Source of the DNA: a virus
Length of the DNA stretch: 43,421 nucleotides
Reading direction: 5' to 3' (one strand)
Virus record (IMG/VR): IMGVR_UViG_3300008267_000239
Coordinates: 1 to 43,421 of that record
Under the pieces are notes generated by a model. It was not told where the DNA came from. It saw nothing but the letters and a program-made list of their open reading frames with translations, and made no database searches. This document shows, piece after piece, positions 2,891 to 38,295 of the stretch (its first letter is position 1; each line of letters opens with the position of its first letter). The position numbers and the translations under genes were made by a program.

Positions 2891-4807
2891 ATGAAAAAAT
2901 ACTTACTTTCCCTTGTCCTCGCCTTTGTAAGCGTATTCGCAATGGCGCAATCAGGACCGCCAGCTCCCGGTAGTGGCATTTACGCATTATTAGACACCAC
3001 CTACGATGTAGGTACTTTTACTCAAGGCGTTTCTCATGCTAGAATCACATTGAAAAATTCAACAGCTACTAAATACACAGCTGTTCAATTTCGTGTTTTC
3101 TACGATAAAAACGCATTCTCTAACGCTTCAGTTGCATTGGTTGGATCCTCAACTAACTTGGATCTACAGCAAGTAGTTAACACAACTCAAGGGTATGTTA
3201 CCATTACTTTGGTATATACTGGTTCGAGTTCTACCTACACTTTAGCTGATGGAGAAACTTTTGATATCACATTCACTCACGTAACTGGAACTTCGTTCTA
3301 TGCTTTAGGTGCAATTGCAAACCTAACCTGGACTCCGGTAGTTGGATACTCATATCCACAAGTTGCAGCTGAACAAAGCGGTGCAGATACCACACTTACC
3401 TTATACAGCTACGGTGGTCAATGGGTTCAACCAGAGCTTAACTTCCATGGTACATTTACTAACGTAACTGGTACAGCTGCTAAAAACCTAACTCTAGCTT
3501 TAGAAAAGAAGGTTAAAACTGGATCAACTTGGTCTACTCACGACACATATGTAACAGATATTAACGGAGACTTCTCCTTTACAGAGATCATTGATACCAC
3601 TTATTACGATGTGCGCTTAGCAATTAAAGGTGATACAATGGGTGTAGGAAACGTTATTTCAACAGCCGATGCACAGTTAGTTAATCAATGGGTAATTGGT
3701 GGTGCGACTCCATCAGGATGGAATTACTATTCTGGAGATGTTAATGGTGATAACAACTTGACTATCTCAGATGCTTGGGGTGTATTTGGTAGAATTTCTG
3801 GTAGATTCTCAGTATGGCCAAACAGTGTTAAGGATGTTAAATTCTTTACAGTATCTGAATACAACACTATCACTGGTACTCCTGCGACAAACTACACTTC
3901 AACAATTGCCGGTGTAACTAACTTCTACTATCCAATTTTACCAGGTCAACCTGACTCAGTAACCTACTACGTTCTTGTACCTGGTGATGCTAATGGAACA
4001 GGATATCATATGGCACGTACGACTCCAATCGAAGTACTTATCACTCCACAACCTGGTATCGAACACCAAATCTATAACGTGATCGATAACAGAGTTCAAT
4101 ACGATTTTCCAGCTCCAACTATCGAAATCAATGTACCTAGATTATCTGTGCAAGAGGGTAATTTGGTGAACATTCCAGTTAAATTAATGTCGAATGGTAT
4201 TAGCTTATCTGCGATGCAATTCGGATTAGAATATAATGACACTCTATTAGAATTTAAAGGTATCGTTGCCTCACAAGCTGCTCAAAAATGGTTGACATAC
4301 GTTAACCCAATGGATAGCAGAGTTGATTGGGGTGGCTTTGATAAAACTAACAATGAGAACCCAATCAACGATGGATCTACTGTAGTAACAATGCAATTTT
4401 TGGCTTTGAAACCCCAACTAGATTGGGGTGTAAGCCCACTTTGGACAACTGAAAAGTTTGCTGGTGATATATTGTCTAAAGACCTAAACATCACACCTGC
4501 AAACGGAGTACTGCAAGTGTATAAGATGATTGGTGGTACTATCTTAAATGCAAACACAATGGAAGTATACCCTAACCCAACTACTGATAAAATTGTTATT
4601 GGGTTTAAGGTAACTGAGCGTACTAGAGGTTCTATTAAAGTGTACGACTTAAACGGAAAGCTTTATATGACTGTTATGGATTCAGATATTCCAGAAGGTC
4701 AATACAAATACTCAGCTGACTTAGGACAATTATCAGCTGGTGTATACTTAACAACTTTGGTTATGGAGAATGGAAAATTTATTTCAAAACAGGTAATTAA
4801 ACAATAA
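2891..4807 (+). CDS. Secreted cohesin/dockerin-like protein with T9SS C-terminal sorting domain
   Basis: This 638-residue protein has, in order: signal peptide 1-19 (cleavage near AMA-Q); a cohesin-like beta domain ~30-170; a beta module ~180-250; a dockerin-like calcium loop ~283-296 (DVNGDNNLTISDA); a linker module ~310-400; a second cohesin-like domain ~409-545 (VNIPVKLMSNGISLSAMQFGLEY is typical); and a Por-type T9SS sorting domain ~557-638. The last begins MEVYPNPTTDK, contains IKVYDLNGK and LSAGVYL, and ends in a Lys-rich tail. Such a tail routes proteins through the Bacteroidetes type IX secretion system to the cell surface. It is first in an operon with CsgG-like, barrel and lectin genes. 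A phage gene with a T9SS signal is unusual. It probably acts on the infected cell's surface rather than in the virion. Confidence 0.85.
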   Translation: MKKYLLSLVLAFVSVFAMAQSGPPAPGSGIYALLDTTYDVGTFTQGVSHARITLKNSTATKYTAVQFRVFYDKNAFSNASVALVGSSTNLDLQQVVNTTQGYVTITLVYTGSSSTYTLADGETFDITFTHVTGTSFYALGAIANLTWTPVVGYSYPQVAAEQSGADTTLTLYSYGGQWVQPELNFHGTFTNVTGTAAKNLTLALEKKVKTGSTWSTHDTYVTDINGDFSFTEIIDTTYYDVRLAIKGDTMGVGNVISTADAQLVNQWVIGGATPSGWNYYSGDVNGDNNLTISDAWGVFGRISGRFSVWPNSVKDVKFFTVSEYNTITGTPATNYTSTIAGVTNFYYPILPGQPDSVTYYVLVPGDANGTGYHMARTTPIEVLITPQPGIEHQIYNVIDNRVQYDFPAPTIEINVPRLSVQEGNLVNIPVKLMSNGISLSAMQFGLEYNDTLLEFKGIVASQAAQKWLTYVNPMDSRVDWGGFDKTNNENPINDGSTVVTMQFLALKPQLDWGVSPLWTTEKFAGDILSKDLNITPANGVLQVYKMIGGTILNANTMEVYPNPTTDKIVIGFKVTERTRGSIKVYDLNGKLYMTVMDSDIPEGQYKYSADLGQLSAGVYLTTLVMENGKFISKQVIKQ

Positions 4808-4811
4808 ATCT

Positions 4812-5138
4812 ATGTCAGAAGAAACACAAGACCACAACGAGGGAACTTGGTCAGGGTTAAAGAAAACAATTGTAGGAACACTATCAACCGCTGTTTTAGC
4901 TGGTGGAACGTGGGTAACGACCACTCTATTTAGTGGTCACGATGACTCAAAAGAAGAGACAAAAACTGAGCAATCAGCTCCAGCTGCAGCTCCGGTTGTT
5001 ATCAACCTTGAGAACAACAACACCAATCAACAAAAACAATCAGGTGGTACTAATACCGTTATCAAAGAGCGTGTAGTAGAAAAACCAGCTGAAAAGAAAG
5101 AAGAGAAAAAATCAGAATCTGAGGATGCTCCTTGGTAA
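4812..5138 (+). CDS. Small single-TM protein with acidic/Lys-rich tail
   Basis: This 108-residue protein has a short charged N-terminus and one hydrophobic segment at ~18-40 (IVGTLSTAVLAGGTWVTTTL). It continues with an Ala/Pro- and Asn/Gln-rich stretch and a Glu/Lys-rich C-terminus. It precedes a two-TM holin candidate and could be a lysis accessory (holin-like or spanin-like) or a membrane anchor for the surface cassette. I cannot assign a family. It begins 4 bases after the T9SS gene. Confidence 0.6.
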   Translation: MSEETQDHNEGTWSGLKKTIVGTLSTAVLAGGTWVTTTLFSGHDDSKEETKTEQSAPAAAPVVINLENNNTNQQKQSGGTNTVIKERVVEKPAEKKEEKKSESEDAPW

Positions 5139-5167
5139 TTAAATTAAATAAACAAAAAACAAAAGCT

Positions 5168-5473
5168 ATGAAATTTTTAAAAAATCTATTTAGTGACAAC
5201 AACGACATCAACGAAAAATCAGTAGTTGGTTTCTTATCATTTGCATGTATGGTAGCAGCCTTAGTGGTTGATTTGATTACCGGTTGGATGGGTAAAGAAT
5301 TACTTATCAACGAGTATATCTTCGACGGCTTCCTAGTAATCACTCTAGGTTCATTTGGTATTGCTGCTGTAGATAAGTATGTAACTAAAAAAGCAGATAA
5401 CGACAAGCATAAGACTGAAGTTGAAAACGGTCTTCACGAAGAGCCACTACCTTACGACGAAAACGAAGGGTAA
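5168..5473 (+). CDS. Two-TM membrane protein, holin candidate
   Basis: I chose ATG 5168 (MKFLKNLFSDNNDINEK, 101 aa), preceded by an A-rich leader, over an in-frame TTG at 5132 that overlaps the previous gene. It has two predicted TM helices, ~20-41 (VVGFLSFACMVAALVVDLIT) and ~49-71, with a short turn and an acidic C-terminal tail. This topology, small size and a nearby endolysin fit a class II-like holin, as in small two-helix proteins of Bacteroidetes phages. The role is inferred. The stop overlaps the next start by one base. Confidence 0.6.
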   Translation: MKFLKNLFSDNNDINEKSVVGFLSFACMVAALVVDLITGWMGKELLINEYIFDGFLVITLGSFGIAAVDKYVTKKADNDKHKTEVENGLHEEPLPYDENEG

Positions 5474-6192
5474 TGAGATTCTTAATCCTATTTTTTGCAT
5501 TTGCATTAAACTTTAACTTGGCTATTGCTCAGGTCGGTACTATTAAGACCGAGCAATACCAAGCTGAGTTTGAAAAGAAGCAGGCAATAGACGCTCTGCC
5601 AGAATACACCGATACAATCCAAATTCCTATCCAACTTCTGAAGATTGGTATCAATGAGGAGTTGTATACAATGTATCCTGAGTTAAAGGACAAGCGTGTT
5701 GGTCTAGGTGTTACAAACATTGTACTTGAGTATCTTGAGTATACTAATCGTTTTGTATTCACTGAAGATAAGCTAGAGATCAAAGAGCGAATGGTTCAGC
5801 AATTCAAAGCCTCCGATAAAGGTTTTACAGAAAACAAAGTAGATGGAAGAGGTAAAATTAAACTAGCTAAGTACTTTGTTTATATCGAGGTTTATGATTT
5901 TTCTGTGAGTGAAGATGAGATCATTCGTGTTGCGGGTGAATCAAAAGTAACTCAAACAACAAGACTCGGTTTGCAGGTAAAGTTTGTAGATGCGGAGACG
6001 GGAGAGGTTATTGTCGGATCTGGATTGGGTGAAGCTACTACAGTAAAAACAGCTTCTATCCTTGATGGTGTAGATGATACGGAGATTAAATTTAACCAAT
6101 CTACAATAGGAATAACTACGAAGAAGTCTCTTGAGACAGCTTCATCTAGAATCGTAAGTAGATTAATAAAGAAGGGTGTATTCAAGAGTTGA
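5473..6192 (+). CDS. CsgG-like secreted/outer-membrane protein
   Basis: This 239-residue protein has a signal peptide at 1-19 (cleavage near AIA-Q) and a CsgG-family pattern over ~72-235. It shows RFVFTEDKLEIKERMVQQ, the LAKYFVYIEVYDF strand ('AdYll.g.v' in the family), LGLQVKFVDAETGEVIVGS ('lrlvDv.tGeil') and a final helix (ASSRIVSRLIKKG). CsgG forms the nonameric outer-membrane pore for curli export, and related proteins occur widely in Bacteroidetes. It lacks an obvious lipoprotein Cys after the signal peptide, unlike E. coli CsgG. It sits in an operon with three other exported proteins and a shortened paralogue at 8653. Assignment is by motif only. Confidence 0.65.
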   Translation: MRFLILFFAFALNFNLAIAQVGTIKTEQYQAEFEKKQAIDALPEYTDTIQIPIQLLKIGINEELYTMYPELKDKRVGLGVTNIVLEYLEYTNRFVFTEDKLEIKERMVQQFKASDKGFTENKVDGRGKIKLAKYFVYIEVYDFSVSEDEIIRVAGESKVTQTTRLGLQVKFVDAETGEVIVGSGLGEATTVKTASILDGVDDTEIKFNQSTIGITTKKSLETASSRIVSRLIKKGVFKS

Positions 6193-7745
6193 AAATAAAA
6201 ATACTAATACTGATTTCTATTGTATTAGGTGCCTTAACGTCTGTTAGCGCGCAGTCATTTTCCTATAGCTATACCGACCCTTGTACTGGTATTACAAAAA
6301 GCATAGCAGTGCCTTCTAACGGAGTCACTGTTTCTTATTATGGGCAAGTTAATACATTTGCACCTGGTGATTTTTATAGTGGGGTGTTTGAGTCTTGGAC
6401 AAACACAGTGTATGCTTCCTTTGGTGGAGTGAATCCGTGTGCTAGTGTTGTAGGCATGCCAACAGCAACTAATGTAGCTCAATCCACAGCTATAAACTTT
6501 ATCGGTCAAGTAAACTCGCTCTCAGCAATTGCAGACTTATCTTCTAGTCTGAGTGCTGTTGGCGGAACAAATATGTTAGGTGGTGTTGCAGGAAGTGCAA
6601 CAAATTCTAGCGGTAATGGTGGTGATAATAAATCTAATAATAGGAATAATAATGGAAGTAATAACAGCAATTCTGGTAGTGGTACCTCTGGCGCTAATAA
6701 TAACAATAGCGGTAGTACAAGTGGTAATGGATCTAATGGTGGGTCTCAGGGCCAAGAAGGTTCGCAAGGCTCGTCTGAAACATCTCAAGGAACTAACGGC
6801 TCAAGCGGAAGCGGAGGAACTGGAACTGGAAGCGAAAGCGGAGGTAGTGGTTCAGGTTCTGGAGAGGGTACCGGTACAAGCGGAAGTGGAAGTACTACAA
6901 GCGGCTCAGGATCCGGATCGGGTAGCTCGAGTGGCTCGTCTGGTAGCGGAACAGGAACGGGGACACAAACAACAGAAACGTCGTCGTCAGAGGGTGGAGG
7001 TAAAACAAACATCTTAGGAGGTTCTGTTAGTTCGGTTGGTGGATCGTCAGGAACTAGTGGTGGATCTGGAGGAAGTAAGGGTGCTGCTGCTACTGCAAAG
7101 AATGGTAATAGACCATCCATTCTAGCTTCAAGCGACTTTGTTGGATTCAATTTCAAGAACTCAGATGTCACCTTTGGAAGTAAAGTCACTGGTGGTTATA
7201 CCGCCATGAGATGGGATGGTAAGAGAGCTAGTGGTATTACAGCGGATTACACTAGTGCTCTTAAAGGACCTAACTTTACTGGCTTCTACGCAAACATAGC
7301 TAAGAAAAGAATTGATCTAATATCTGGTACAGTAACTCTAGGTTTTGATAAGCAGAGGTCTGCATATGGAACCTTAGCGTTAGGTCAGATGTGGACACTT
7401 GGTAAAAAGAAAAAAGCTAAAGCTGTTTATATGCTTACCGGATCATGGGGTAATGTGTATGGTACGCCATTTGTTGGTACAGCTGTGATAACTGGTGGAA
7501 TGTATGACTTAAAAATCGGTAAAAGGATCGATATTAAGTTAATGGGATTATACGTATATGCGCCGTATGTTAGCTACTATAATGATATCTTACTCAAATC
7601 GCCACACGTAGTGTTGCCGATTGTTGGTACAAACATTGGTGTGACTAAGAGGTTTAAGATTAATATAAATGGTGGTGGAGCTTGGGCAATTGGTGAAAGT
7701 ACTTTGAATTACACAGTAATGATGGGTACAAGATTATTGCTATGA
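6189..7745 (+). CDS. Secreted protein: Gly/Ser/Asn linker plus predicted outer-membrane beta-barrel
   Basis: This 518-residue protein starts at a TTG overlapping the previous TGA (TTGA at 6189-6192). It has a signal peptide at 1-21 (SVSA-Q) and a short N-terminal domain with two Cys (DPCTGIT and NPCASVV). A low-complexity Gly/Ser/Asn/Thr segment covers ~135-300. The C-terminal ~200 residues have alternating hydrophobic/polar strands with aromatic ends, ending TVMMGTRLLL, as expected of an 8-stranded outer-membrane barrel. The likely picture is a barrel anchor in the host outer membrane with a flexible tether displaying the N-terminal domain. I do not recognise a named family. It is flanked by CsgG-like and lectin genes in the same operon. 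Confidence 0.7.
   Translation: MKIKILILISIVLGALTSVSAQSFSYSYTDPCTGITKSIAVPSNGVTVSYYGQVNTFAPGDFYSGVFESWTNTVYASFGGVNPCASVVGMPTATNVAQSTAINFIGQVNSLSAIADLSSSLSAVGGTNMLGGVAGSATNSSGNGGDNKSNNRNNNGSNNSNSGSGTSGANNNNSGSTSGNGSNGGSQGQEGSQGSSETSQGTNGSSGSGGTGTGSESGGSGSGSGEGTGTSGSGSTTSGSGSGSGSSSGSSGSGTGTGTQTTETSSSEGGGKTNILGGSVSSVGGSSGTSGGSGGSKGAAATAKNGNRPSILASSDFVGFNFKNSDVTFGSKVTGGYTAMRWDGKRASGITADYTSALKGPNFTGFYANIAKKRIDLISGTVTLGFDKQRSAYGTLALGQMWTLGKKKKAKAVYMLTGSWGNVYGTPFVGTAVITGGMYDLKIGKRIDIKLMGLYVYAPYVSYYNDILLKSPHVVLPIVGTNIGVTKRFKININGGGAWAIGESTLNYTVMMGTRLLL
6597..7090 (+). repeat. Low-complexity Gly/Ser/Asn-coding tract
   Basis: Imperfect GGN/AGN codon repeats encode an Asn-rich stretch (about 6630-6720) followed by a Gly-Ser-rich stretch. 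The tract gives long open frames on the other strand and frame that are composition artefacts. It is likely prone to length variation by slippage. Confidence 0.7.
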
Positions 7746-8650
7746 GAAAGTTAATTATATTAGTGCTGATGTGTCTACCTCTACTTGTAGAGGCACAATT
7801 TACATATTCGGGCTATATAAGGAATGCTGATGGAACTGGAGCTGTAAACTTTCCTGTGAAGCTCTATAGAAGAACAAACTCAACTATTACTGGATTCACA
7901 AATCAACAAAACTACAACGGTCACTCTTACTATAGATCGACTGGTTCAGCGTTTTGGTTAACAGCTAAAGCAAACTGTGATGCGATGGGTGGACATCTAG
8001 TTACTGTAACAACTTCAGCTGAGAATAATTTTATATACAATCTTTGGCCTTCCGGATGGATTGGTTTAACAGATGAGGTAACTGAGGGTACTTGGAAATG
8101 GGTTACTGGAGAAACCTATTCTTACACATCTTGGAATCCAGGAGAACCTAACAATGCCGGTAATGAGGATTATGTTATAGTAACAACATCGTCTTGGACT
8201 TTATATAAAACAGCATATACAAACTCATCAGGATACTATTCGTTTAGCGAACCATACGATCCATCTAAGGAATATTATATTCAACTAGATGTTGCTAATC
8301 CAGTTACCACAATAACAAACACTGATGTCATTGCTCCAACGGATGTGATTCTGTCTAAGATTGTTAGAAAGTCAATACACTTCAATCAATACGATGTGAA
8401 TAATGATGGTGCAATCACAGTATCGGATGCATACTACATTAATAAAAAGAGAAACTTAACTGCTCCAACTTGGCCAGCTCTTAGATTATATACACCAGCT
8501 CAGTATACATCGCTCACAACTGGTACAACAGACCTACGAACAACAATACCTGGCGTTGCTAATATAACAATAAACACTCCAGTGTCAGGAACCACAAACG
8601 CAAACTATTATTTGATCGCCCCAGGATACAAAGGGCAAGTAAGCTATTAA
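7742..8650 (+). CDS. Secreted C-type-lectin/dockerin-like protein
   Basis: This 302-residue protein has a signal peptide at 1-18 (VEA-Q) and the first part of a small beta module (~20-52). A C-type lectin fold covers ~58-150 (WLTAKANCDAMGGHLVTV, WIGLTDE, WNPGEPNN). The rest of the beta module follows (WTLYKTAYTNSSGYYSF), then a dockerin-like loop at ~218-231 (DVNNDGAITVSDA) and a C-terminal segment paralogous to residues ~310-370 of the 2891-4807 protein. EPN is the Ca2+/mannose-type motif of C-type lectins. The usual second half with WND and the paired Cys is missing, so the lectin looks truncated within its host module. There is no T9SS tail. It starts in a 4-base overlap with the barrel gene. 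Confidence 0.75.
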   Translation: MRKLIILVLMCLPLLVEAQFTYSGYIRNADGTGAVNFPVKLYRRTNSTITGFTNQQNYNGHSYYRSTGSAFWLTAKANCDAMGGHLVTVTTSAENNFIYNLWPSGWIGLTDEVTEGTWKWVTGETYSYTSWNPGEPNNAGNEDYVIVTTSSWTLYKTAYTNSSGYYSFSEPYDPSKEYYIQLDVANPVTTITNTDVIAPTDVILSKIVRKSIHFNQYDVNNDGAITVSDAYYINKKRNLTAPTWPALRLYTPAQYTSLTTGTTDLRTTIPGVANITINTPVSGTTNANYYLIAPGYKGQVSY

Positions 8651-8652
8651 TT

Positions 8653-9105
8653 ATGAAATCACTATTATTTTTATTATTGATCATCCCATCTTTTTTATTT
8701 GCTCAAGAGACTTGTGTTAAAGTTGACTCTGTATTCGTAACCGCAAAGGTTAGAGAACTGGGAAGCAGGGATATTAAATTTGGTATCAAGCAAATTGCAG
8801 AAGATTACCTTTCTGAGAAATACTGTCTATCACCAGAGGGTGCTTCAATTTGGGTTGAGGTTTACTACTTTGGTATTCCAAAAAACACACTAAGAATTGC
8901 TGGTGTAGAAAAAACAGAACAGATTACTCAAGTCGGCGTTCGTCTTCATTACAAAGGATCTAAGTACGATGGTATTGGTGAATCAGCAACAGAAGTTAGA
9001 ACTATGTTATTGGAGGTTCAAGAGGGACAAATGCCTTTTGAAAAGATGACAGTATCGTCAGCATTAAAAAAGGGACTAGCAGAGGCTATTCTTAAGCTTC
9101 CGTAA
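8653..9105 (+). CDS. Short CsgG-like paralogue, secreted
   Basis: This 150-residue protein has a signal peptide at 1-17 (LFA-Q). Residues ~78-150 parallel residues ~150-232 of the CsgG-like protein at 5473: TLRIAGVEKTEQITQVGVRL against IIRVAGESKVTQTTRLGLQV, then an IGES strand and a final helix. The N-terminal half of the CsgG-like protein is shortened. It could be a partner subunit, a regulator or a decayed duplicate. It is the last gene of the surface operon, two bases after the lectin gene, and is followed by a new promoter candidate. Confidence 0.6.
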   Translation: MKSLLFLLLIIPSFLFAQETCVKVDSVFVTAKVRELGSRDIKFGIKQIAEDYLSEKYCLSPEGASIWVEVYYFGIPKNTLRIAGVEKTEQITQVGVRLHYKGSKYDGIGESATEVRTMLLEVQEGQMPFEKMTVSSALKKGLAEAILKLP

Positions 9106-9117: not shown

Positions 9118-9567
9118 ATGAGATGGTTATTTGTTGTTTTAACTTGCTTAATATCGGTCAACCTATCTGCTCAGATTAAGGTGGATGATGTCGGTGATGG
9201 CTGGAAAGCGAAAGTTGATTCAGCTCTGTCGATTATCCAACAATATGACATACAACGATACAATCTCCTAGTACAAAACTGCAATCAAGTACAATACTGG
9301 AATGGAAACTTCAGCACTACTGAAGGGTTTTCTATAATGATATCTACTCGTGAAATGAGAGCAGGCAACATCAATAACATAGCAGCTATACTCGTTCATG
9401 AATCGCTTCATTTATATTTTAAAAAAGGTAACTGCTCTCTATCCCCTAACGATGAGGAAGCTTCTTGCTATGCGTACGAGTTGGACTTTTTAAACCACAT
9501 ACCTAATGTTGAGCCATGGCTGATTCAACATGCTAAAAATCAAATCAAATTCTATTGCAAGTCATGA
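9118..9567 (+). CDS. Secreted small zinc-metalloprotease-like protein
   Basis: This 149-residue protein has a signal peptide at 1-19 (LSA-Q) and a compact domain with HESLH (HExxH zinc motif) at ~99-103. A downstream EEASCYAYELDFL helix supplies candidate third-ligand acids (gluzincin-like spacing). It has four or more Cys, consistent with a periplasmic or extracellular location. It begins a unit that continues into the endolysin, so a role in envelope breakdown is plausible but inferred. Confidence 0.65.
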   Translation: MRWLFVVLTCLISVNLSAQIKVDDVGDGWKAKVDSALSIIQQYDIQRYNLLVQNCNQVQYWNGNFSTTEGFSIMISTREMRAGNINNIAAILVHESLHLYFKKGNCSLSPNDEEASCYAYELDFLNHIPNVEPWLIQHAKNQIKFYCKS

Positions 9568-14444: not shown

Positions 14445-14517
<73 letters not shown>

Positions 14518-14535
14518 CAAAAATAATTTTCTTTT

Positions 14536-28442: not shown

Positions 28443-29537
28443 ATGATTTTAAGATTTTATCCAACCAAAGACGCTACAATATACGAGCAGTATCCTGAGA
28501 AGAATACTGGCTTGGATGCTATGCTTGAAATCAAAAAGACCTTAGTAGGTAGTTCAAGCTACAACTCCAGAATATTATTGGATTTTGATTATTCTAGTAT
28601 GTCTGCTAGTATTGCCTCTTTAGGATATAATCCAAACCAATTTCAATACTCATTAAAATTATATACATCAGACGCTAACGAAATACCATCTAACTACACA
28701 CTATATGCTTATCCTGTGAGTGGTAGTTGGAATATGGGTATTGGTCGTTATGGAAACAGCCCAGAAACTAAAGTTGGTGTAAGTTGGTATTACAAACAGA
28801 CAGCAGATGACGTTGCTACATCATGGTCAACAGCATCTTTTGCAGCGACTGTGACTGCATCATGGCTTTCTGCTCCAGGTGGTGGTACTTGGTATACATC
28901 GAGTGTTGCATCACAATCGTTTAGCTACACCACGTCCGATCTTGATATGGATATCACATCCATTGTTAGAAAGGTACAATCAGGATCCTTAGATTTTAAC
29001 GGTCTTGTTATCAAGAAGAGTGATACAGATGAATCATCTACAAATGTATTCAATAGTCTTAAATTTTTTAGTAAGGATACGCACACAATATACTTACCGG
29101 TTATTGAAGCAAAGTATGATGATAGTACTAGTTTAGGCACCTTATCTGCAGTAAATGTTAATGAAGAGATCACTATAACACCAATCGACTTAAAACCATC
29201 ATACGCAGAATCGTCAACACCAAGAATAAGATTCTCAGCGCGATCAAGATATCCAGTAGCTACATTTGCTACATCTTCAGAATATCTAACTAGATACAGA
29301 TTGCCAGCTGGAACTCAATATGCTGTCTACAGCGCTCATAATGACGATGTTGTTATTAACTTTAGCAATTACACTAAGATTAGTGATGATGCTACTAGTA
29401 ACTTCGTAAAATTACACTTGGACAGCTTTCAGCCAGAAAGATATTATAGATTGGTATTGAGAGTTCCTAACTCAGGATCTTATGCATCTTACGATGTGTA
29501 TGATGATAAGTGGATTTTTAAAGTTACTAGAAACTAA
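28443..29537 (+). CDS. Virion protein with DNRLRE-like N-terminal domain
   Basis: This 364-residue beta-rich protein begins MILRFYPTKDATIYEQYPEK, resembling DNRLRE-type modules (xxPxxDxxI...N.G....L). The following NSRILLDFDYS and DLDMDITSIVRKVQSG also fit. The C-terminal ~140 residues form another beta domain. In T4-like phages of aquatic bacteria such proteins follow gp6 in the wedge cluster. Its exact baseplate position is unknown. The stop overlaps the next ATG by one base. Confidence 0.65.
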   Translation: MILRFYPTKDATIYEQYPEKNTGLDAMLEIKKTLVGSSSYNSRILLDFDYSSMSASIASLGYNPNQFQYSLKLYTSDANEIPSNYTLYAYPVSGSWNMGIGRYGNSPETKVGVSWYYKQTADDVATSWSTASFAATVTASWLSAPGGGTWYTSSVASQSFSYTTSDLDMDITSIVRKVQSGSLDFNGLVIKKSDTDESSTNVFNSLKFFSKDTHTIYLPVIEAKYDDSTSLGTLSAVNVNEEITITPIDLKPSYAESSTPRIRFSARSRYPVATFATSSEYLTRYRLPAGTQYAVYSAHNDDVVINFSNYTKISDDATSNFVKLHLDSFQPERYYRLVLRVPNSGSYASYDVYDDKWIFKVTRN

Positions 29538-32500
29538 TGAGATTTCCAGACCAATCATTGATAGGAGATTTGGGTGATGGCGTTACATCAAAAACGTCAG
29601 CAAGCATATCGATACTCGCTACTTCAAGTTTAGACGAGAATCAAACAACCTATGACCTATTACCAACTATTATCAATAGGCCTCCAGTTATTGTAGAGCC
29701 AATCGAGCTAGCTTCTACACCACAGATCAAACCTTATGAAACAGCTGACGCTAGTGGTAAGTATTTATACTACTTTCCAGATGGTACTGTTAAGATCAAT
29801 CTAGGAGCTAAGATTACATTAGCTGTTAAAGCAGAGCAACCACAAATTCTAAATGTTGAGAATGGAATATTAACGATGGTTAAACCATCTGTTGGATTAA
29901 CATACATTTGGAGAAAGAATGGTATCATGCTTAACTCCGATCAATCTTTTTCGCTACAATCTAAAGTGACTGTATCAGGCAATAGTGTTAGCTTTGATAA
30001 CATACAGCCTTCCGATGCAGGAACATACACTTGCGATATTAGTAATGATATAGGAACAGTCACTACAGAGCCTGTAATAATAGAAGTACTTAATTTGGAT
30101 TTTGATGCACTATTTTATAGAAACTTAATCAATAATCCATATGGTGCGAATGGAACAGACGGTTGGCAGGTTAATAACGACGATCTAACAACAAAGAGGT
30201 TTACTAAAATACCATCAACCGATCTAATAAAGCCAGATAGACCTGATTTATTTGGTTATACGATGGATACGTTACACCCAAGACCTTACCAATTAGATAC
30301 TGGTGTGATTCAAGGGTTTGATATGACGAAAGAGTTTCTTAAAGATAACGCTTCATACTTCACAAGAACACGATATAAGTTTTTAAAGCGTGGTGGTTCT
30401 TTTTTGGTTAGGGCTTATCAAGATATCGATTTGTCTGATATAGTATGGCTAACTAAGGGCGGTGTTTTTGGTGTGGAAGGTGTAAGAGCTATATTCAGCT
30501 GTTATATTGGAAACGCTCTGACAACATTCATGCCAGTGCAGGAGTTGGTGGATCCAAAAAACAGAAGATTGCCTCAAAACTATGTTTTAAATAAACCAAG
30601 AATCAGTAAGGAGAATTTTTTATTAGCAGGTCCTTCGCATGGCGTGCAAGAGCATGTTTATGTATCGTTTGAGGAGTATGATAATGAGACTAGATTGGCT
30701 AGTCATATATTACAAAAAGACGGCTCAGTAGTAAAACAAGAAAATAGAATAACACTAGCTGATCCATGGACAAGTAGGTTGTGGAAGTATTGGGGACAAA
30801 AATATTACGACAAGGATATATATGGACTTGGTGAGTTGTCAAGTGGTGATGGTAGAGATGCTGTACTGTTTGTTGCTGATGAATTGTATCCAGATGAGAG
30901 CGTACGATATGCTTATGGTCAGTATGCTGAGTTTAATAAGGTTGTATTAGATAGATTAAACCCAAATACTACAAAAGTTAGAGTAACCTTAAATTTTCAA
31001 ACTTCAGACTGGAGAATTTTTGAACAATGGAAAGAGGGTTTTGAAAATAGTGAAGAGGTTTTTGAGTTTGTTAGTTGGGAAAGTCCGTACGAAAGAAATC
31101 GCTGGACAAAGCCGCAGCTTGATTGGGGTAAAACTATAACATCACAAATAACAAAACTTCCTGGAAACGAAGAAAAGGGTGTAAAGGCTTTACCTACATC
31201 ACCAGATCCTCGAGGATTTGCTTCTGCGATCAACGTAACGCTACTACCGGTATTAACTCAACAAAAATCTAGCACAGAATACTATACAAATATATCACTG
31301 GTTAAAAATGATACACCTGAGTCAGTAGTACAAACTGGTCTGATAAAGAGTAGGCCATACGATCCTTATGGATTAGCTTCTAAAAAACTACTATTCACTT
31401 TCGATACTATATCGGACGGGAAACCAGTAGTGAATAATTTAGGTGTTATTGAAACAAAAGATAGGTTAAAAATAGGTTTAAAAATAAGACAGAAGGATAG
31501 TCAAACAAATACAGAAGTCGATAAAAATCTAGGAATTGATCCAATTCGAATTTTACCAATCCAACCCAACTCAACGGTTACGGTGGAGAGCTTACCAGAC
31601 TTTGTACAAAAAGATTCAGCATTGAACATCACCTTTAACGATTATGTTAGATATCGTTTTGTTGATAGCTACGAATCTTCTAGAGAAAAAGGAGTTATTG
31701 TAAGTGGAGTTCCATCGGCAAATTATGAGACTATCGCTCTAGAGATGAAAGATGCTGGCTTTACGGTTTCTAATATCACAGATAGAGTGCCAGAACAAGG
31801 TAACGATGTACCAACGTTATGGAGTAATAAGATCAGACTACAATTGTTTTTTGGACTGAAAGGATCGCAAATAACCCAAACCAAATTATCACCATCAAAA
31901 ATAGATAAAGCTGATCAAGGACGAGTTGTAAGACTTCAAAGCTATTATTTAGATATTGATTTCTCTGGCGCAGAATCCAAAGTCACATTGTCTAGACCAT
32001 CTGATCAAAATATGTACCCAGGATTTGGCTCTGGTACTTATGAACTAGAGCATAGTATTGATCCATACGGTAATCTGATATGCGATATACCATCGCAGAT
32101 GAAATTCTCTATGGCTCCTGGTTTAGGTTTTTCAAGATTGAAGGGTGAGGATATCATAATAAACGATACACCTATAAACTGTTTAAAAGCGTTGCATGCA
32201 AATGTAGGACAGTATGTTAGGGGTTCATATAAAACAAACGGATATTTTAATAATCTAGCGGATGGCATTTTGCAAGTTGTGAAAGAAGATGTTGCTAATA
32301 CGTCTTTTGCAGAAGCTAAGACTATTAAACAAGAATACCTTACAGCTTTAACAAACTACGTTAACAACGTTAATTCACTACCAACTGCAAAATATAATAC
32401 CATCGATAAAACTTACAACACAAGTTTGACTATCGATTTAGAGGACGAAGCGTTTACAGGATTGCTACCCACTGTCGATAAACCGGCACACCTGAGCAAC

Positions 32501-32647
32501 CTTAAAAAACCAGATGCATTACTCGAACTATTAGCTGTATACAATCCATCAACTACTCAAAACGGTATTGTTATTGGAACGCCATCTTACTTTGAAGATG
32601 AGAATGGCATAAGCTACACTATAGGATACGCTGCTCTTCCTCAGTAA
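29537..32647 (+). CDS. Large virion protein with Ig-like domain (1036 aa)
   Basis: An Ig-like (I-set type) domain lies at ~90-185 (LTYIWRKNGIMLNSDQSF, SDAGTYTCDISNDIG), followed by ~70 residues matching the 32679 gene (FYRNLINNPYG...DGW against LYKNLLRNGDG...DGW). The long remainder is beta-rich and unrecognised. Ig domains on virions commonly contact surface carbohydrates or stabilise fibres. It is a paralogue of the next large gene and probably a wedge or fibre protein. Length is close to T4 gp7, but I see no sequence basis for that name. Confidence 0.7.
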   Translation: MRFPDQSLIGDLGDGVTSKTSASISILATSSLDENQTTYDLLPTIINRPPVIVEPIELASTPQIKPYETADASGKYLYYFPDGTVKINLGAKITLAVKAEQPQILNVENGILTMVKPSVGLTYIWRKNGIMLNSDQSFSLQSKVTVSGNSVSFDNIQPSDAGTYTCDISNDIGTVTTEPVIIEVLNLDFDALFYRNLINNPYGANGTDGWQVNNDDLTTKRFTKIPSTDLIKPDRPDLFGYTMDTLHPRPYQLDTGVIQGFDMTKEFLKDNASYFTRTRYKFLKRGGSFLVRAYQDIDLSDIVWLTKGGVFGVEGVRAIFSCYIGNALTTFMPVQELVDPKNRRLPQNYVLNKPRISKENFLLAGPSHGVQEHVYVSFEEYDNETRLASHILQKDGSVVKQENRITLADPWTSRLWKYWGQKYYDKDIYGLGELSSGDGRDAVLFVADELYPDESVRYAYGQYAEFNKVVLDRLNPNTTKVRVTLNFQTSDWRIFEQWKEGFENSEEVFEFVSWESPYERNRWTKPQLDWGKTITSQITKLPGNEEKGVKALPTSPDPRGFASAINVTLLPVLTQQKSSTEYYTNISLVKNDTPESVVQTGLIKSRPYDPYGLASKKLLFTFDTISDGKPVVNNLGVIETKDRLKIGLKIRQKDSQTNTEVDKNLGIDPIRILPIQPNSTVTVESLPDFVQKDSALNITFNDYVRYRFVDSYESSREKGVIVSGVPSANYETIALEMKDAGFTVSNITDRVPEQGNDVPTLWSNKIRLQLFFGLKGSQITQTKLSPSKIDKADQGRVVRLQSYYLDIDFSGAESKVTLSRPSDQNMYPGFGSGTYELEHSIDPYGNLICDIPSQMKFSMAPGLGFSRLKGEDIIINDTPINCLKALHANVGQYVRGSYKTNGYFNNLADGILQVVKEDVANTSFAEAKTIKQEYLTALTNYVNNVNSLPTAKYNTIDKTYNTSLTIDLEDEAFTGLLPTVDKPAHLSNLKKPDALLELLAVYNPSTTQNGIVIGTPSYFEDENGISYTIGYAALPQ

Positions 32648-32678: not shown

Positions 32679-35078
32679 ATGAAAAAAACCATAAGACTAT
32701 CATCCTTTGCAGAAGAACGAGCATTACGTGCTGGGGATTTCAGTCTTATGCCCAGGAATCCATCACCACCTTACATTCTATCTCAACCGATAAAAAACTT
32801 TCAACAGTTTACTTGGATTGAAGGTTTGATTGATGGCAATCTAAAGTACCAAAGTATTAGTCCAACATTTGATACTATCAATATGTTGAAAGGTACTTCT
32901 TTTAGTTTTGAGATTCGTGTAGCTGATCCATCAAATGTAAATAATCCAAACGACACTACAAATCTATCTTTCAAGTGGAAGCGTAATGAGGCTCCGATTT
33001 ACGATCTTAATAAATTAAATGGTGGAGTAGGCACTTCAGCCGCTTTAGTTGAAGAACAATCATCTACACCAAACCTATCAGGACGATATACTTGTGAAGT
33101 GTCTAATCAGTTTGGCTCTATTGAATCAGTACCGTTTGATGTGAATATAATTGATCCACTTAAACATCCACTATTATATAAAAACTTACTGCGCAATGGC
33201 GATGGGGATGGAGGTCTTGATGGTTGGACTGCTGATCCAGATATAAAGATTCAGCCGTTTGTAAATGATACATCATTAATTAAAGGCTTTGGTAGTTTTA
33301 GATTTGCAAACCTACCTTTGATTGATTTTAATAAAGAGACCTCTGGAGCAGTTGCAATGGAGTTCTTCTTCTCAAACGCTTCTCATTGGGGTTTATTCTT
33401 CAACTGGTATAATAAGCGTTTGAAGAGTGATCCAACAATGACTAATATCAATCTCACATCAACATCATTAGGTATTTTGGATGAGGGTGAGCGTTGGATA
33501 TCGGAAGGTGTAATTCCACAAATTGTACCTAATGAGGATTATGTAAGATCAGAATTTGCAGCTTTCTATCCTGGCATCGCTTGGATGGATCAGTACAATA
33601 AAAACAGTAAAACTATTGGACTTTATGCAGAGTTCAAGGATTTTACACCAACATACTTTACAAGAGATAAACTTAAATTTGCTAAGTTTGGTGGCAATGA
33701 TATATCAACGTTATCGCAAACTATAGATGTTAATGAATTAGCGGATTTTGTTGATGGTAATGTGTATGGAGTGAAATACTCCACAGCTCAGTTCTTTGCG
33801 TATGTAGGAGCTGGTATCACAGACTATAAGATAAAAGTTCAAACGGTTGATGGTGAGAAGGTATTTAATTACAATATTGCCGATTCAGAACAAATGTACG
33901 ATCATATTGTTCAAGAAAAGAATGCAGCGTTTCCTTTAGTGTTTGAAGAGTCTCAGGGTAAGATAAAATATAAACTAGTTCCTGGAACGCCTATTGAAAT
34001 CATACCACAATGCTATGATAAGACTACCATAAAGCTCTCTTTCATTGATGATAGAGGTTTTGTAAGAAAGGAGGAGGTTATCAATGGACCTAATGAATTA
34101 GACTTATGGGCCATCAAAGAAAAAGCATTCTTTCCAATAACCCTTTTTGGATTATACGAGTTCATTACACCTAGCAATAACGATATTATAGTATTTGGTC
34201 AAAAATACACAAATACAGATGCAATCGCTCTAATGTTTGACACTGAAAAGTCAGGTGTCTTTAGTAAGGGTGTAGATCACACACCATACACACAAACCAC
34301 TTTACGAGATGTAGCTGCTAGGTTTTTTGCAAACAAGTACGATTTCACAAGACATGGAACAGCGTATCCTGGTGACGTATGGTTTGGTAAAAAATACTCA
34401 CAAGATAATAAATTCTATTACAGAGCAATTCCAGATCACGGCGCAGCAGCGATGTTTGGTGTTGGTAAGGATATAATCATTCCAACGAAAACAAGATCGA
34501 TTCGCGTAGATGTTGTGTTTAAGCATACTTCAGATATTTTATTAGATGTTGATCCAAATTTGAAAGGTTGGACAGAGCAGGAGATTTATACAAATGAGTA
34601 TGGTCAGAGTACTGGTTTGAGTCGTCGTCTTGTTGAGTACGGAAATCCTCGCTGTGGTATTTCTAAAATGAAATTATTCATTGCTCCTAATGATATTGGA
34701 GTGTCTGAAGAGTTTGCTAGTTATAGAATACCGCCACAAGAGAGTACTGTATTAGGTTTACAAAAGCGTCGATATCAAAATCCGGCTGCATTTAACACTG
34801 CAGATGCTTCCACATTTACATACACACTAATACAACCTGATGGCATGCCAACAGCACCGGCTATAAACGATCCATTTATACTAGCTAAGAATCAGGAAAG
34901 TTATATTAATAGTATTCAAGAGCAAAACGATAAAGCAGCTCAACTGAACGCAGCAAGTGTGCCAGATGCTCTAATGGATGAAGCTGATATCCTAGCTAAG
35001 GAAGATGAGGATCGTGCAGCAGGTGATTACAGCTTAGGATTGTATATACCAGAGAATCTAGATGAGAGTAACTTGTAA
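32679..35078 (+). CDS. Large virion protein with Ig-like domain (799 aa), paralogue of 29537
   Basis: The N-terminus MKKTIRLSSFAEERALRAGD is charged. An Ig-like domain covers ~65-160 (LSFKWKRNEAPIYDLN, LSGRYTCEVSNQFGS), followed by the same LLYKNLLRNGDG...LDGW segment as the previous gene. A long beta-rich body and a helical, Asp/Glu-rich C-terminus follow. Duplication and divergence of a common ancestor is the simplest reading. Role likely in baseplate or tail-fibre network. Confidence 0.7.
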   Translation: MKKTIRLSSFAEERALRAGDFSLMPRNPSPPYILSQPIKNFQQFTWIEGLIDGNLKYQSISPTFDTINMLKGTSFSFEIRVADPSNVNNPNDTTNLSFKWKRNEAPIYDLNKLNGGVGTSAALVEEQSSTPNLSGRYTCEVSNQFGSIESVPFDVNIIDPLKHPLLYKNLLRNGDGDGGLDGWTADPDIKIQPFVNDTSLIKGFGSFRFANLPLIDFNKETSGAVAMEFFFSNASHWGLFFNWYNKRLKSDPTMTNINLTSTSLGILDEGERWISEGVIPQIVPNEDYVRSEFAAFYPGIAWMDQYNKNSKTIGLYAEFKDFTPTYFTRDKLKFAKFGGNDISTLSQTIDVNELADFVDGNVYGVKYSTAQFFAYVGAGITDYKIKVQTVDGEKVFNYNIADSEQMYDHIVQEKNAAFPLVFEESQGKIKYKLVPGTPIEIIPQCYDKTTIKLSFIDDRGFVRKEEVINGPNELDLWAIKEKAFFPITLFGLYEFITPSNNDIIVFGQKYTNTDAIALMFDTEKSGVFSKGVDHTPYTQTTLRDVAARFFANKYDFTRHGTAYPGDVWFGKKYSQDNKFYYRAIPDHGAAAMFGVGKDIIIPTKTRSIRVDVVFKHTSDILLDVDPNLKGWTEQEIYTNEYGQSTGLSRRLVEYGNPRCGISKMKLFIAPNDIGVSEEFASYRIPPQESTVLGLQKRRYQNPAAFNTADASTFTYTLIQPDGMPTAPAINDPFILAKNQESYINSIQEQNDKAAQLNAASVPDALMDEADILAKEDEDRAAGDYSLGLYIPENLDESNL

Positions 35079-35112: not shown

Positions 35113-38100
35113 GTGGCTAAAAACATAATCAACATTCCGGCTAAAAATATTGAAGCTTCACAAGTTGAATCTTCACTAGGGAGTGCTATCAAAACAAAGT
35201 TAGTCAAGAGTTTGGAGGATCAGATATCTGAAAATGCTTATGTAACATTAGCAGAAAAGGAAAAGGAAAAGGATCCACAACAATTGGTGGTTAAGTCTTT
35301 TGGTTCTTACAGTAACGGAGTAGCTAACTATCCAAACGATGTTATTCGTTTAGATATAGAGAATGCAAATAATCAATACCTAGAATCAAACTATCGTATT
35401 GATGGTTTTGTACAATCTAATAATGAAATAACACTTGATCCAGAAAAGAATTTAAGCGACTTAAATTATATTTCGGGTAAGTACAGAGTTACATATGCCT
35501 TTCATCGTAACCTTTTAGGTTCTGGAGATGGTCATAAATTACAAATTCAAGAGATTAGTGCTGATGGATTAGAGATAAGAGTTATCCCTGCTATATCAAA
35601 TACTATATCTAATGTTGACTTTCTGGATTTTTTTGCTGATAGTTTCTTTAAACTTCCTAAGAGTCAAACATTAACAAACTTATTCTTATTTAAAGATGCA
35701 AATACATCAATGCGTGTATTTGACTATGTACAAGATAAGTTTACATTTTCAACAACTCCTTACAGCATAATCTTCAAACTAAATACTCCAGCTCCGGATG
35801 GTGTTAATATTGGAGATTTAATTTGGTTATCGCAGCAAGTTAGTGATAGTTTGGTTGATACAATCACAATTGTACCACCTAAACTCAAAACGAGAAAGAC
35901 CTTTATTGCAGGTCCAAACTGGGATGCAATAAATAAAGATCAAACAGCTGTAGGTACGCAGTATAAGGACTGGGATGATTTATTATCAACAACAACCCAG
36001 ACGTCTGAGGATATCATAAGAACCTTATTAAGTAGTTCTTTCTTAGAGGGTATCAATCTAAACATTGATTTTAGGCATTTTAGTAACCACATCCAGTTTG
36101 GATCTGCAACTGAACGCTTATTAAATTTCAAATATAAAATGCAGCTTATTGAATCCTATGATTCACGTATAGCAGCATTAACAACTGATTTAAGTGGCTT
36201 ACCTAGTAGTAGTGTTTCTAGTAGTATATACTTCCAAACAAACATTACAGACACTAAAACAAAAAAAGCTGCATTGCTTGGATCAATGGACTCTTACGAG
36301 AAGTATTTGTTATATCAATCCAGTAGCTATGTTACAAACAGCTTTGGTGAGTTTTACCCATCTACATGGCCAAAATCAAATAACACTAGGCCATACGTAA
36401 ATTACGCAGTAACTTCATCTCAGGTTGAGAGTTGGTTTGATGGCATTTATAGTAGTGCCAGTTTATATGATCAAAATAATCAATCAGCACTATATAAACT
36501 AATACCTGCACACGTTCTAGAGGATAGTACAAACGAAGAGTATGTATTATTCACTCACATGATTGGTCATTACTACGATCTCATGTTTGCTTATGTCAAG
36601 CATATGACTAAGCTGCACTCTAGAGAAGAATCAATTCTAGAAGGATTTAGTAAAGACTTGATATATCATGTTGGTAAGAATTTAGGTATAGATTTTGAGA
36701 ATGGAAACACTCTTAAAGAATTGTGGGACTATGCTCTAGGTACTAGTGTATCCGGATCTTTAGCATCAACATATAGCATAACGAGTGAGGATAAAACCAA
36801 AGAGACTTGGAAGCGTATTATCAATAACCTTCCTTACCTCCTAAAAACTAAAGGTACAGAACGAGGAGTTAGAGCGCTAATCAACTGTTTTGGTATTCCA
36901 CAAACAATTCTCAGAATCCGTGAATATGGCGGAGCTGAACCAGAGTTTGATACAAAAACTGATTGGGTTCATGAGCGTTTTAATTACTCAACTACAGTAG
37001 GCTATAACGGTCAAATATCTGGAAATCCAGTACAAACACTGAGAGCTGATTGGGATAGTATAGGATCACAATCTTTATATCCAAATGCAGTAGAGTTGCG
37101 TGTAAAGATGGCAGTAAGTCAATCGAAGATACAACGCTTAATGGAGAAATCCGGTTCGTGGTATTTAGAAGCTTCTAAATCTGGAGACTTTCAGTATTTA
37201 AAACTATACTTAGGTAATAATAATAACTCCACATCAACATGGGGATCCTCAACGACATGGGCTACAGCTAGTATTAGTTGTTCAATCTACGATGGCGACT
37301 GGTATCATGTTGCAGTTAATAGATCACAAGCTACTAACACAGATTCAGTTTCTCAAACATACTCACTCATTGTTAAAAAAGCGAAGTATGAAAAAGTAGT
37401 ATTTTCACAAAGTTCGTCAATCACTGTAACTGGATTAACTAGTGCCTCTTACAATAATGCCTGGACAACTTCCCATATATCTAGCAGCCATTTATGGCTA
37501 CCTGGAACAGGATCATATACCATTGCACAGAGTCATTCAATGTTATTGTGGACTGGTTCTATTCAAGAGCTAAGATATTGGAGTGAACCATTACAAGACA
37601 GTATTTTAGATAATCATACACTCGCACCAACAAGTTACCAAGGAAACTTATCTGATACATATACCGGAAGTACGTCTAGCTTCTATACATTGATGATGCG
37701 TCATCCATTAGGAGCTGACAATAAAAAGTTAGCAGTTACTGGTAGTAGTGGTTTAGTGGTTTCTTCATCACACCCAAACCAACAATATAAAACGGGTACT
37801 GATATTAGAGCTTACAACTTTAGTGGATCAATACACAAACCTAACGTGGAGATCCATTCGATGGAGTGGCCTGATTTAGGAGCAAATAGGCAGGTTGGTA
37901 ATAAAATAAGAATTGACGAAACTTTTTTAGCAGGGGATTCACAACTATATCGTGATAATAGCGCAGAAAGATCTTTAACAGACAACTATCCTGCCGATTC
38001 ACCACGACTAGGTGTTTACTTATCGCCAGTTAATGAGGTGAACCAAGACATTGCAGAACAGTTTGGTGGTCTTAGTATTGATGATTTTATTGGTACTCCA

Positions 38101-38295
38101 AGTGATTTGAGTAAAGATCATTATCCTGATTTAGAGAACTTACAATACGAGTATCTAAAAAAATATACATCTGGAAGATATAGACCACAAAACTATATGG
38201 ACCAGAAACATATATTACACCAGGTGGCTTTGTTCAAGATGGTGATGGCGAGCCATTCCGTGATGGATCGGGTTATGTTCAAGAAGGTAAAATAG
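35113..38295 (+). CDS. Tail protein-I-like/baseplate protein with LamG-like domain, 3' end apparently frameshifted
   Basis: The start is GTG 35113 (VAKNIINIPAKN); no nearby in-frame ATG exists. In this 1060-residue frame, ~570-615 (TWKRIINNLPYLLKTKGTER, then GVRALINCFGIPQTILRIRE) is the signature of phage tail-protein-I-like proteins. Residues ~650-820 look like a LamG/concanavalin domain (WYHVAVNRSQ). The final ~28 residues after ~38210 look non-native, Met- and Val-rich. From 38184 a different frame carries protein-like sequence with no start codon. I infer that the true product continues into the next entry, either by -1 frameshifting or because of a lesion or assembly error. Confidence 0.75.
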   Translation: MAKNIINIPAKNIEASQVESSLGSAIKTKLVKSLEDQISENAYVTLAEKEKEKDPQQLVVKSFGSYSNGVANYPNDVIRLDIENANNQYLESNYRIDGFVQSNNEITLDPEKNLSDLNYISGKYRVTYAFHRNLLGSGDGHKLQIQEISADGLEIRVIPAISNTISNVDFLDFFADSFFKLPKSQTLTNLFLFKDANTSMRVFDYVQDKFTFSTTPYSIIFKLNTPAPDGVNIGDLIWLSQQVSDSLVDTITIVPPKLKTRKTFIAGPNWDAINKDQTAVGTQYKDWDDLLSTTTQTSEDIIRTLLSSSFLEGINLNIDFRHFSNHIQFGSATERLLNFKYKMQLIESYDSRIAALTTDLSGLPSSSVSSSIYFQTNITDTKTKKAALLGSMDSYEKYLLYQSSSYVTNSFGEFYPSTWPKSNNTRPYVNYAVTSSQVESWFDGIYSSASLYDQNNQSALYKLIPAHVLEDSTNEEYVLFTHMIGHYYDLMFAYVKHMTKLHSREESILEGFSKDLIYHVGKNLGIDFENGNTLKELWDYALGTSVSGSLASTYSITSEDKTKETWKRIINNLPYLLKTKGTERGVRALINCFGIPQTILRIREYGGAEPEFDTKTDWVHERFNYSTTVGYNGQISGNPVQTLRADWDSIGSQSLYPNAVELRVKMAVSQSKIQRLMEKSGSWYLEASKSGDFQYLKLYLGNNNNSTSTWGSSTTWATASISCSIYDGDWYHVAVNRSQATNTDSVSQTYSLIVKKAKYEKVVFSQSSSITVTGLTSASYNNAWTTSHISSSHLWLPGTGSYTIAQSHSMLLWTGSIQELRYWSEPLQDSILDNHTLAPTSYQGNLSDTYTGSTSSFYTLMMRHPLGADNKKLAVTGSSGLVVSSSHPNQQYKTGTDIRAYNFSGSIHKPNVEIHSMEWPDLGANRQVGNKIRIDETFLAGDSQLYRDNSAERSLTDNYPADSPRLGVYLSPVNEVNQDIAEQFGGLSIDDFIGTPSDLSKDHYPDLENLQYEYLKKYTSGRYRPQNYMDQKHILHQVALFKMVMASHSVMDRVMFKKVK

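Follow-up and report, generated by a model that had tools for sequence, protein, structure and literature searches.

Rings at the outer membrane are formed by CsgG and by PelC, barrels of the FapF type are polypeptide exporters, cohesin-dockerin pairs build extracellular complexes, and type A tails route proteins through the type IX secretion system (T9SS) and attach them at the cell surface. Among phages, T5 makes Llp, a single small surface exclusion lipoprotein. Cryophage encodes a T9SS type A cargo, for which a role in superinfection exclusion has been suggested (PMC7468147). Here we describe a cassette of genes (A to G) at positions 2891-9105 of a 43,421-nucleotide stretch of viral DNA, referred to below as the window, which corresponds to 1-43421 of a virus fragment 51,161 bp long (IMG/VR record IMGVR_UViG_3300008267_000239). 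Judged from gene content in related contigs, the cassette is a near-invariant block of six or seven genes common to large viruses of aquatic Bacteroidota. Its open reading frames are tightly packed, all on the + strand and in the order A-B-C-D-E-F-G; they are listed here with their domains, in amino acids (aa) and transmembrane segments (TM), followed by the adjacent gene H.

2891-4807, +: A, exported anchor/scaffold protein, 638 aa (domain matches, family conservation)
4124-4402, +: cohesin domain of A, residues 412-504 (PF00963, 2.9e-5)
4565-4798, +: T9SS type A sorting domain of A, residues 559-636 (PF18962, 1.3e-12; TIGR04183)
4812-5138, +: B, one-TM protein, 108 aa (sequence; in every complete locus)
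5168-5473, +: C, two-TM protein, lysis-associated, facultative (homologue adjoins the endolysin in Flavobacterium phage immuto and many contigs)
5473-6192, +: D, exported protein with CsgG fold, 239 aa, the best-conserved of the core (AlphaFold2 model, Foldseek)
6189-7745, +: E, exported protein with N-domain, helix, disordered linker and 12-strand beta-barrel, 518 aa (predicted structure)
7116-7739, +: predicted 12-strand outer-membrane barrel of E, residues 310-517 (predicted structure)
7742-8650, +: F, exported glycan-binding head with dockerin-like module, 302 aa (domain matches)
7955-8206, +: C-type lectin domain of F, residues 72-155 (PF00059, 1.3e-13)
8315-8446, +: dockerin-like calcium-loop segment of F, residues 192-235 (PF00404, 0.0097, below cut-off; loop conserved)
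8653-9105, +: G, short exported D paralogue, 150 aa (profile homology to D)
9118-9567, +: H, small exported HExxH metallopeptidase-like protein, 149 aa, non-core (HExxH..E motif)

A, D, E, F and G have Sec-type signal peptides, each ending AQ. A preliminary description of this DNA had placed these five exported products correctly in one operon, but had omitted B and C, which lie inside it. The listed TTG start of C at 5132 is probably too early, and 5168 was used.

The cassette resembles Cryophage in having phage genes with T9SS type A tails and variable adhesive or enzymatic parts, but those of Cryophage, a phage of 76 kb, are variable cargo genes that stand singly, and partners such as D, E, B and G are not described there (PMC7468147). 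D shares its fold with CsgG of the curli system and with PelC, but has neither a Pfam CsgG domain nor a significant profile match, carries a lipobox-like motif in only 11 of 29 homologues and has no evident membrane hairpin; unlike the curli system, the block contains no recognisable curli subunit gene. Like FapF and the 12-strand autotransporters, E would consist of an N-terminal domain, a helix, a long linker and a 12-strand barrel, but without sequence similarity to them. An anchored cohesin protein (A) and a dockerin-like cargo with a calcium loop (F) recall the cellulosomal scaffold, from which the cassette differs in its dockerin (below the cut-off, with one canonical loop), in a cargo that is a lectin and not an enzyme, and in its phage origin. 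A possible adsorption-blocking function would be shared with T5 Llp, although the cassette would form a multi-protein, envelope-spanning set. The closest counterpart is found in a cultured phage, Flavobacterium phage immuto (gp13-gp19, NC_055915), which has the same cassette with F first, C elsewhere and A split in two; its record labels members of the block 'lectin C-type' and 'cohesin' but does not treat them as a system, nor does any paper found. Searches of an open-access library, from which most subscription papers are absent, turned up no comparable multi-gene system. The preliminary claim that no described phage system has this combination therefore holds for the system but not for its parts, since phage T9SS cargo was known from Cryophage and the lectin and cohesin of immuto were already named. 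Viral multi-gene surface machinery of this kind appears not to have been described before, whereas single phage T9SS cargos have.

Conservation, phage ownership and mobility

Searches of IMG/VR with one pattern set each gave 365 relatives with D as query, 224 with E and 318 with A. Since loci were chosen by similarity to the cassette's own genes, on contigs that are fragments, the completeness figures that follow describe the block and not its frequency among phages. Profile mapping found A, B, D, E, F and G together in all 65 distinct D-seeded loci with enough flank, in only three orders: A-B-D-E-F-G (37 loci), A-B-D-E-G-F (15) and F-A1-A2-B-D-E-G (13). The full set was likewise complete in 44/44 E-seeded loci and in 34/38 A-seeded loci, the other four being without a detected G only, within the distance searched. 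The three sets overlap, the same contigs being reachable from each seed; chance clustering was rejected, as the independent seeds A, D and E return the same gene set. The third order is that of immuto, in which gp13 to gp19 correspond to F, A1 (gp14), A2 (gp15), B, D, E and G. When A, D, E and F were compared by tblastn with 50,697 phage records, only immuto isolates matched, and no relatives of the four were found in that collection outside immuto. The largest carrier seen was a 434,509-bp virus contig with an A homologue (L418).

The preliminary description regarded the cassette as phage-borne and named a host segment or an assembly chimera as the alternative. Both are ruled out by the synteny of the 65 complete loci and by the complete isolate immuto. 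The block recurs in phage contigs and was present in no sampled bacterial chromosome; D was detected in one of 301 flavobacterial genomes, the seed metagenome-assembled genome (MAG) only. Two contigs in the genome collection bear the cassette: one of 254 kb encodes a terminase, and the other, a 12.6-kb piece of a MAG, has an endolysin beside the cassette.

A tree of the large terminase subunit (TerL) divides the large carriers (99-373 kb) into three clades, all of them supported. Terminases of the three lineages are about 30% identical to one another; in the two clades other than that of immuto, TerL is about 27-33% identical to the immuto protein. Across these clades, D has 62-74% identity to its immuto counterpart. 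TerL clades 1 and 2 break up in the cassette tree, where neither is monophyletic (approximately unbiased test, p 7e-6 and 8e-45), a conflict with the TerL tree which indicates that cassettes moved between lineages, as a unit.

Products of the cassette

A has an N-terminal beta region followed by a dockerin-like module, a cohesin and a T9SS type A C-terminal sorting domain. This tail lies above curated cut-offs (PF18962, 1.3e-12, 48.3 bits versus 27; TIGR04183, 4.5e-9, 36.2 versus 23) and is kept in 29/29 sampled homologues, and a simple rule recognised a Sec-like N-terminus in 41 of 43. The cohesin match is just above its cut-off in the window (24.7 bits versus 24.1) and was recognised in 26 of 29 homologues at E<0.01 (best 9.5e-14). 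The dockerin match is sub-threshold (0.085), and the corresponding calcium loop is near-invariant across the family. The earlier reading of A as a T9SS-tailed cohesin/dockerin-like protein thus stands, with its dockerin-like part below threshold. A is a single protein in most phages and two adjacent proteins in relatives of immuto.

F, which has no T9SS tail, carries a well-supported Lectin_C domain (52.1 bits versus a cut-off of 22.6). Its C-terminal module is homologous to the dockerin-like module of A and kept across the F family, with calcium-loop residues as near-invariant as those of the A family. By eye, these modules have one conserved canonical calcium loop and one degenerate loop, and the score for the duplicated-loop dockerin type I is below the cut-off. 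The heads vary: 28 homologues gave matches to Lectin_C (23/28), LamG (9), Ig_7 (3), PA14 (1) and GEVED (1), and 124 of 396 close pairs (D at least 85% identical) had heads less than 45% identical. The pair L050/L057, for example, is 96% identical in D, 88% in A2 and 83% in the dockerin-like end, and 34% in the head. Since the dockerin-like end has often diverged too among the 124 pairs (median 38%), it is a subset of close pairs that shows, at the level of protein sequence, F keeping this end while its glycan-binding head is exchanged. The homologous module in A and F and its retention under head exchange in this subset support, as an inference, the earlier suggestion that cohesin-like and dockerin-like parts on different proteins assemble. 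Between the immuto isolates 2-6A and 3-5A the differences form a recombination-like patch that spans F, A1 and A2 (L003:9500-13350), while no protein difference separates them in B, D, E or G; with few amino-acid changes in this patch, the isolates were uninformative on diversifying selection, which was not retained as a candidate.

Neither D nor E has a relevant Pfam, NCBIfam or PHROG family, PDB sequence searches with the two gave no matches, and PF03783 (CsgG) was absent from the matches of 43 D/G members. An hhalign comparison of D with flavobacterial CsgG was not significant, with shallow profiles and with one of the seven reading frames picked (L427) probably not CsgG. The AlphaFold2 model of D, a single-chain prediction like that of E, with a predicted local distance difference test score (pLDDT) of 71, found CsgG as its best PDB match (4uv2; Foldseek E 1.4e-7, probability 1.0, TM-score about 0.5, high root mean square deviation), then PelC and FlgT, and its best match in BFVD is a phage protein named CsgG. 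The label 'CsgG-like' is therefore one of predicted fold and not of sequence, and D as an ordinary CsgG was rejected for its lack of a profile match. The lipobox-like motif of some homologues is not in the window copy. D has an extended hairpin with a polar tip, in which a membrane hairpin is not clearly evident; the 'CsgG-like pore' announced in the preliminary description thereby weakens to a CsgG fold and a putative pore. G, described there as a short CsgG-like paralogue, proved to be a true but distant paralogue of D (hhalign 97.5%).

The predicted model of E agrees with its first description as a linker-barrel protein: an N-domain and a long helix precede a 180-residue disordered linker and the 12-strand barrel (pLDDT mostly 80-93), and outer-membrane barrels, including FapF, autotransporters and NanC, dominate the top Foldseek matches of this prediction. 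B, a core member, has one TM and a roughly 65-aa tail whose acidic ..W end is conserved; its charge distribution suggests an N-in topology with the tail in the periplasm. C is facultative (37 of the 85 first loci) and often adjoins an endolysin. H, with a signal peptide ending AQ and no Pfam family, keeps HExxH..E in 29/29 homologues; it is a frequent neighbour, near 55 of the 85 first loci and sometimes on the strand opposite to the cassette.

Late-promoter-like motif and possible functions

The tandem promoter candidates reported earlier before the cassette correspond to two true copies of the motif TATTTATA, which is enriched in intergenic DNA of the window:

2814-2821, +: late-promoter-like motif TATTTATA, copy 1
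2840-2847, +: late-promoter-like motif TATTTATA, copy 2

Eight of the nine + strand copies are intergenic, though intergenic DNA makes up 6% of the window (gene list made in this analysis). Most lie 4-70 bp before a gene, and several 4-15 bp before structural-region genes. In the regions upstream of A, ATATTTAT is present in 30 of 65, versus 2.1 expected. The enriched motif, ATATTTAT/TATTTATA, corresponds to the T4 late promoter box read in reverse complement; a T4-type TATAAATA promoter was rejected, as its occurrence in 10/65 upstream regions was equalled by the highest of 200 shuffles. The occurrence of TATTTATA before both the cassette and structural-region genes supports expression that is shared between them and probably late. 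Copies upstream of genes at 1572, 2814, 2840, 14604, 25621, 35096, 39579 and 41504 make the motif a candidate late promoter of this phage group.

The data establish the gene block, its domains and co-inheritance, the head exchange in a subset of pairs and the promoter motif, and at the level of sequence they support assembly at the cell surface well. From them we infer that the products form a complex, together with its topology, timing and function. A would leave by the Sec pathway and then the host T9SS, and be retained at the surface as an anchor, onto which F would dock by its calcium-loop dockerin-like end, presenting a swappable glycan-binding head. E would be the outer-membrane barrel; underneath, D and its paralogue G would form a ring resembling those of CsgG and PelC, in the periplasm or the outer membrane, and B would join the D/G/E assembly to the inner membrane; B, D/G and E may stabilise the complex or aid the export of F, which has no T9SS tail of its own. 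A late lectin coat would then most likely mask or alter adsorption glycans, so that infected cells escape superinfection and neither they nor debris deplete the progeny. That virulent phages carry a mobile, multi-protein, trans-envelope organelle which uses the host T9SS to display an exchangeable lectin, the phage and not the host setting surface binding, seems to us close to an even chance. Slightly more tentatively, we propose as the best explanation that this mobile module assembles an adhesin complex at the surface of infected Bacteroidota and that its lectin coat blocks superinfection or adsorption. Superinfection block, aggregation and nutrient capture, all roles listed in the preliminary description, would each suit the data. 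Receptor masking or superinfection exclusion is preferred because the variable part is a glycan-binding head, because the same suggestion was made for the phage with T9SS cargo (PMC7468147), and because these phages also carry surface-sugar genes: immuto has a sugar/LPS-type (lipopolysaccharide-type) gene cluster, and surface remodelling against superinfection has been proposed for large Bacteroidetes phages (PMC9723584).

Four observations weigh against this proposal. The dockerin match is below the Pfam cut-off. The immuto block sits by nucleotide-metabolism genes, which makes late timing less certain there. D was undetectable in a related, wedge-positive 178-kb record (L239/G332, possibly a fragment), so the module is not obligatory in its clade. 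Finally, no similarity was found between F heads and tail proteins, either those of immuto or those of the window phage; a shared receptor is thus not indicated, and derivation of the head from the phage's own tail adhesin was rejected.

Should the proposal be true, a conserved machine dedicated to the cell surface is built by lytic phages in the course of infection, and they exploit T9SS, a route confined to Bacteroidota and relatives. Competition among phages, adhesion of infected cells and the ecology of particles would then be connected in aquatic Bacteroidota, which are abundant. The pair of immuto and Flavobacterium sp. LMO8 would offer tractable genes for the control of re-adsorption by large phages and, as the D, E and B families have no usable Pfam or PHROG assignment, hundreds of phage contigs would gain a hypothesis.

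The strongest rival to superinfection exclusion is adhesion for spread, in which infected cells, coated with lectin, adhere to particles or to cells not yet infected and progeny are freed beside new hosts. The F heads are general adhesion and glycan-binding modules, the promoter motif is of late type and the inferred hosts are polysaccharide-degrading aquatic Bacteroidota (PMC9723584), all in favour of spread, but masking fits the same parts equally well and we consider spread unlikely. A lysis module breaching the outer membrane, with B acting like an inner-membrane spanin, D/G/E perforating or disrupting the outer membrane and C as holin, is improbable. The two-TM C lies inside the operon and beside the endolysin in many phages, an endolysin is downstream in the window and H is an exported metallopeptidase-like protein; against this, the immuto C homologue (gp192), which precedes the endolysin (gp191) and holin (gp190), lies with them at 43-45 kb, far from the 10.5-16.4 kb that the cassette occupies. 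C is also non-core, and lysis has no use for lectin heads or a T9SS tail; a lysis/spanin module was rejected, since C and endolysin travel separately from the block. It is quite improbable that A acts as a decoy which loads or diverts the host T9SS, such that T9SS-dependent surface proteins, including phage receptors, are not displayed: flavobacterial T9SS/gliding mutants do resist phages and the tail is kept throughout the sampled A homologues, but the swappable F heads and D, E, G and B would be left unexplained. Lastly, despite a promoter motif in common with structural-region genes and the frequency of lectin domains on tails, it is very hard to believe that the products are virion components, as virion proteins assembled in the cytoplasm need neither the Sec signal peptides found on all five nor the T9SS tail of A, and the block is apart from the structural genes in immuto.

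Neighbouring features of the window

The flanks of the cassette are those of a phage, with an endolysin of glycoside hydrolase family 19 (GH19) downstream and tail tape-measure and baseplate wedge genes farther along. The window also encodes a phage tmRNA (13103-13448; tag ANVDYSTEYYAVAA) and, at 14445-14518, a tRNA-Met. LamG-type lectin domains occur in structural-region proteins encoded at 35113-38295 of the window (weak match, 6.6e-4) and at G000:C1:43072-44619 (strong match, 5.2e-15), and immunoglobulin-like domains are present in the large structural-region proteins at 29537-32647 and 32679-35078 of the window.

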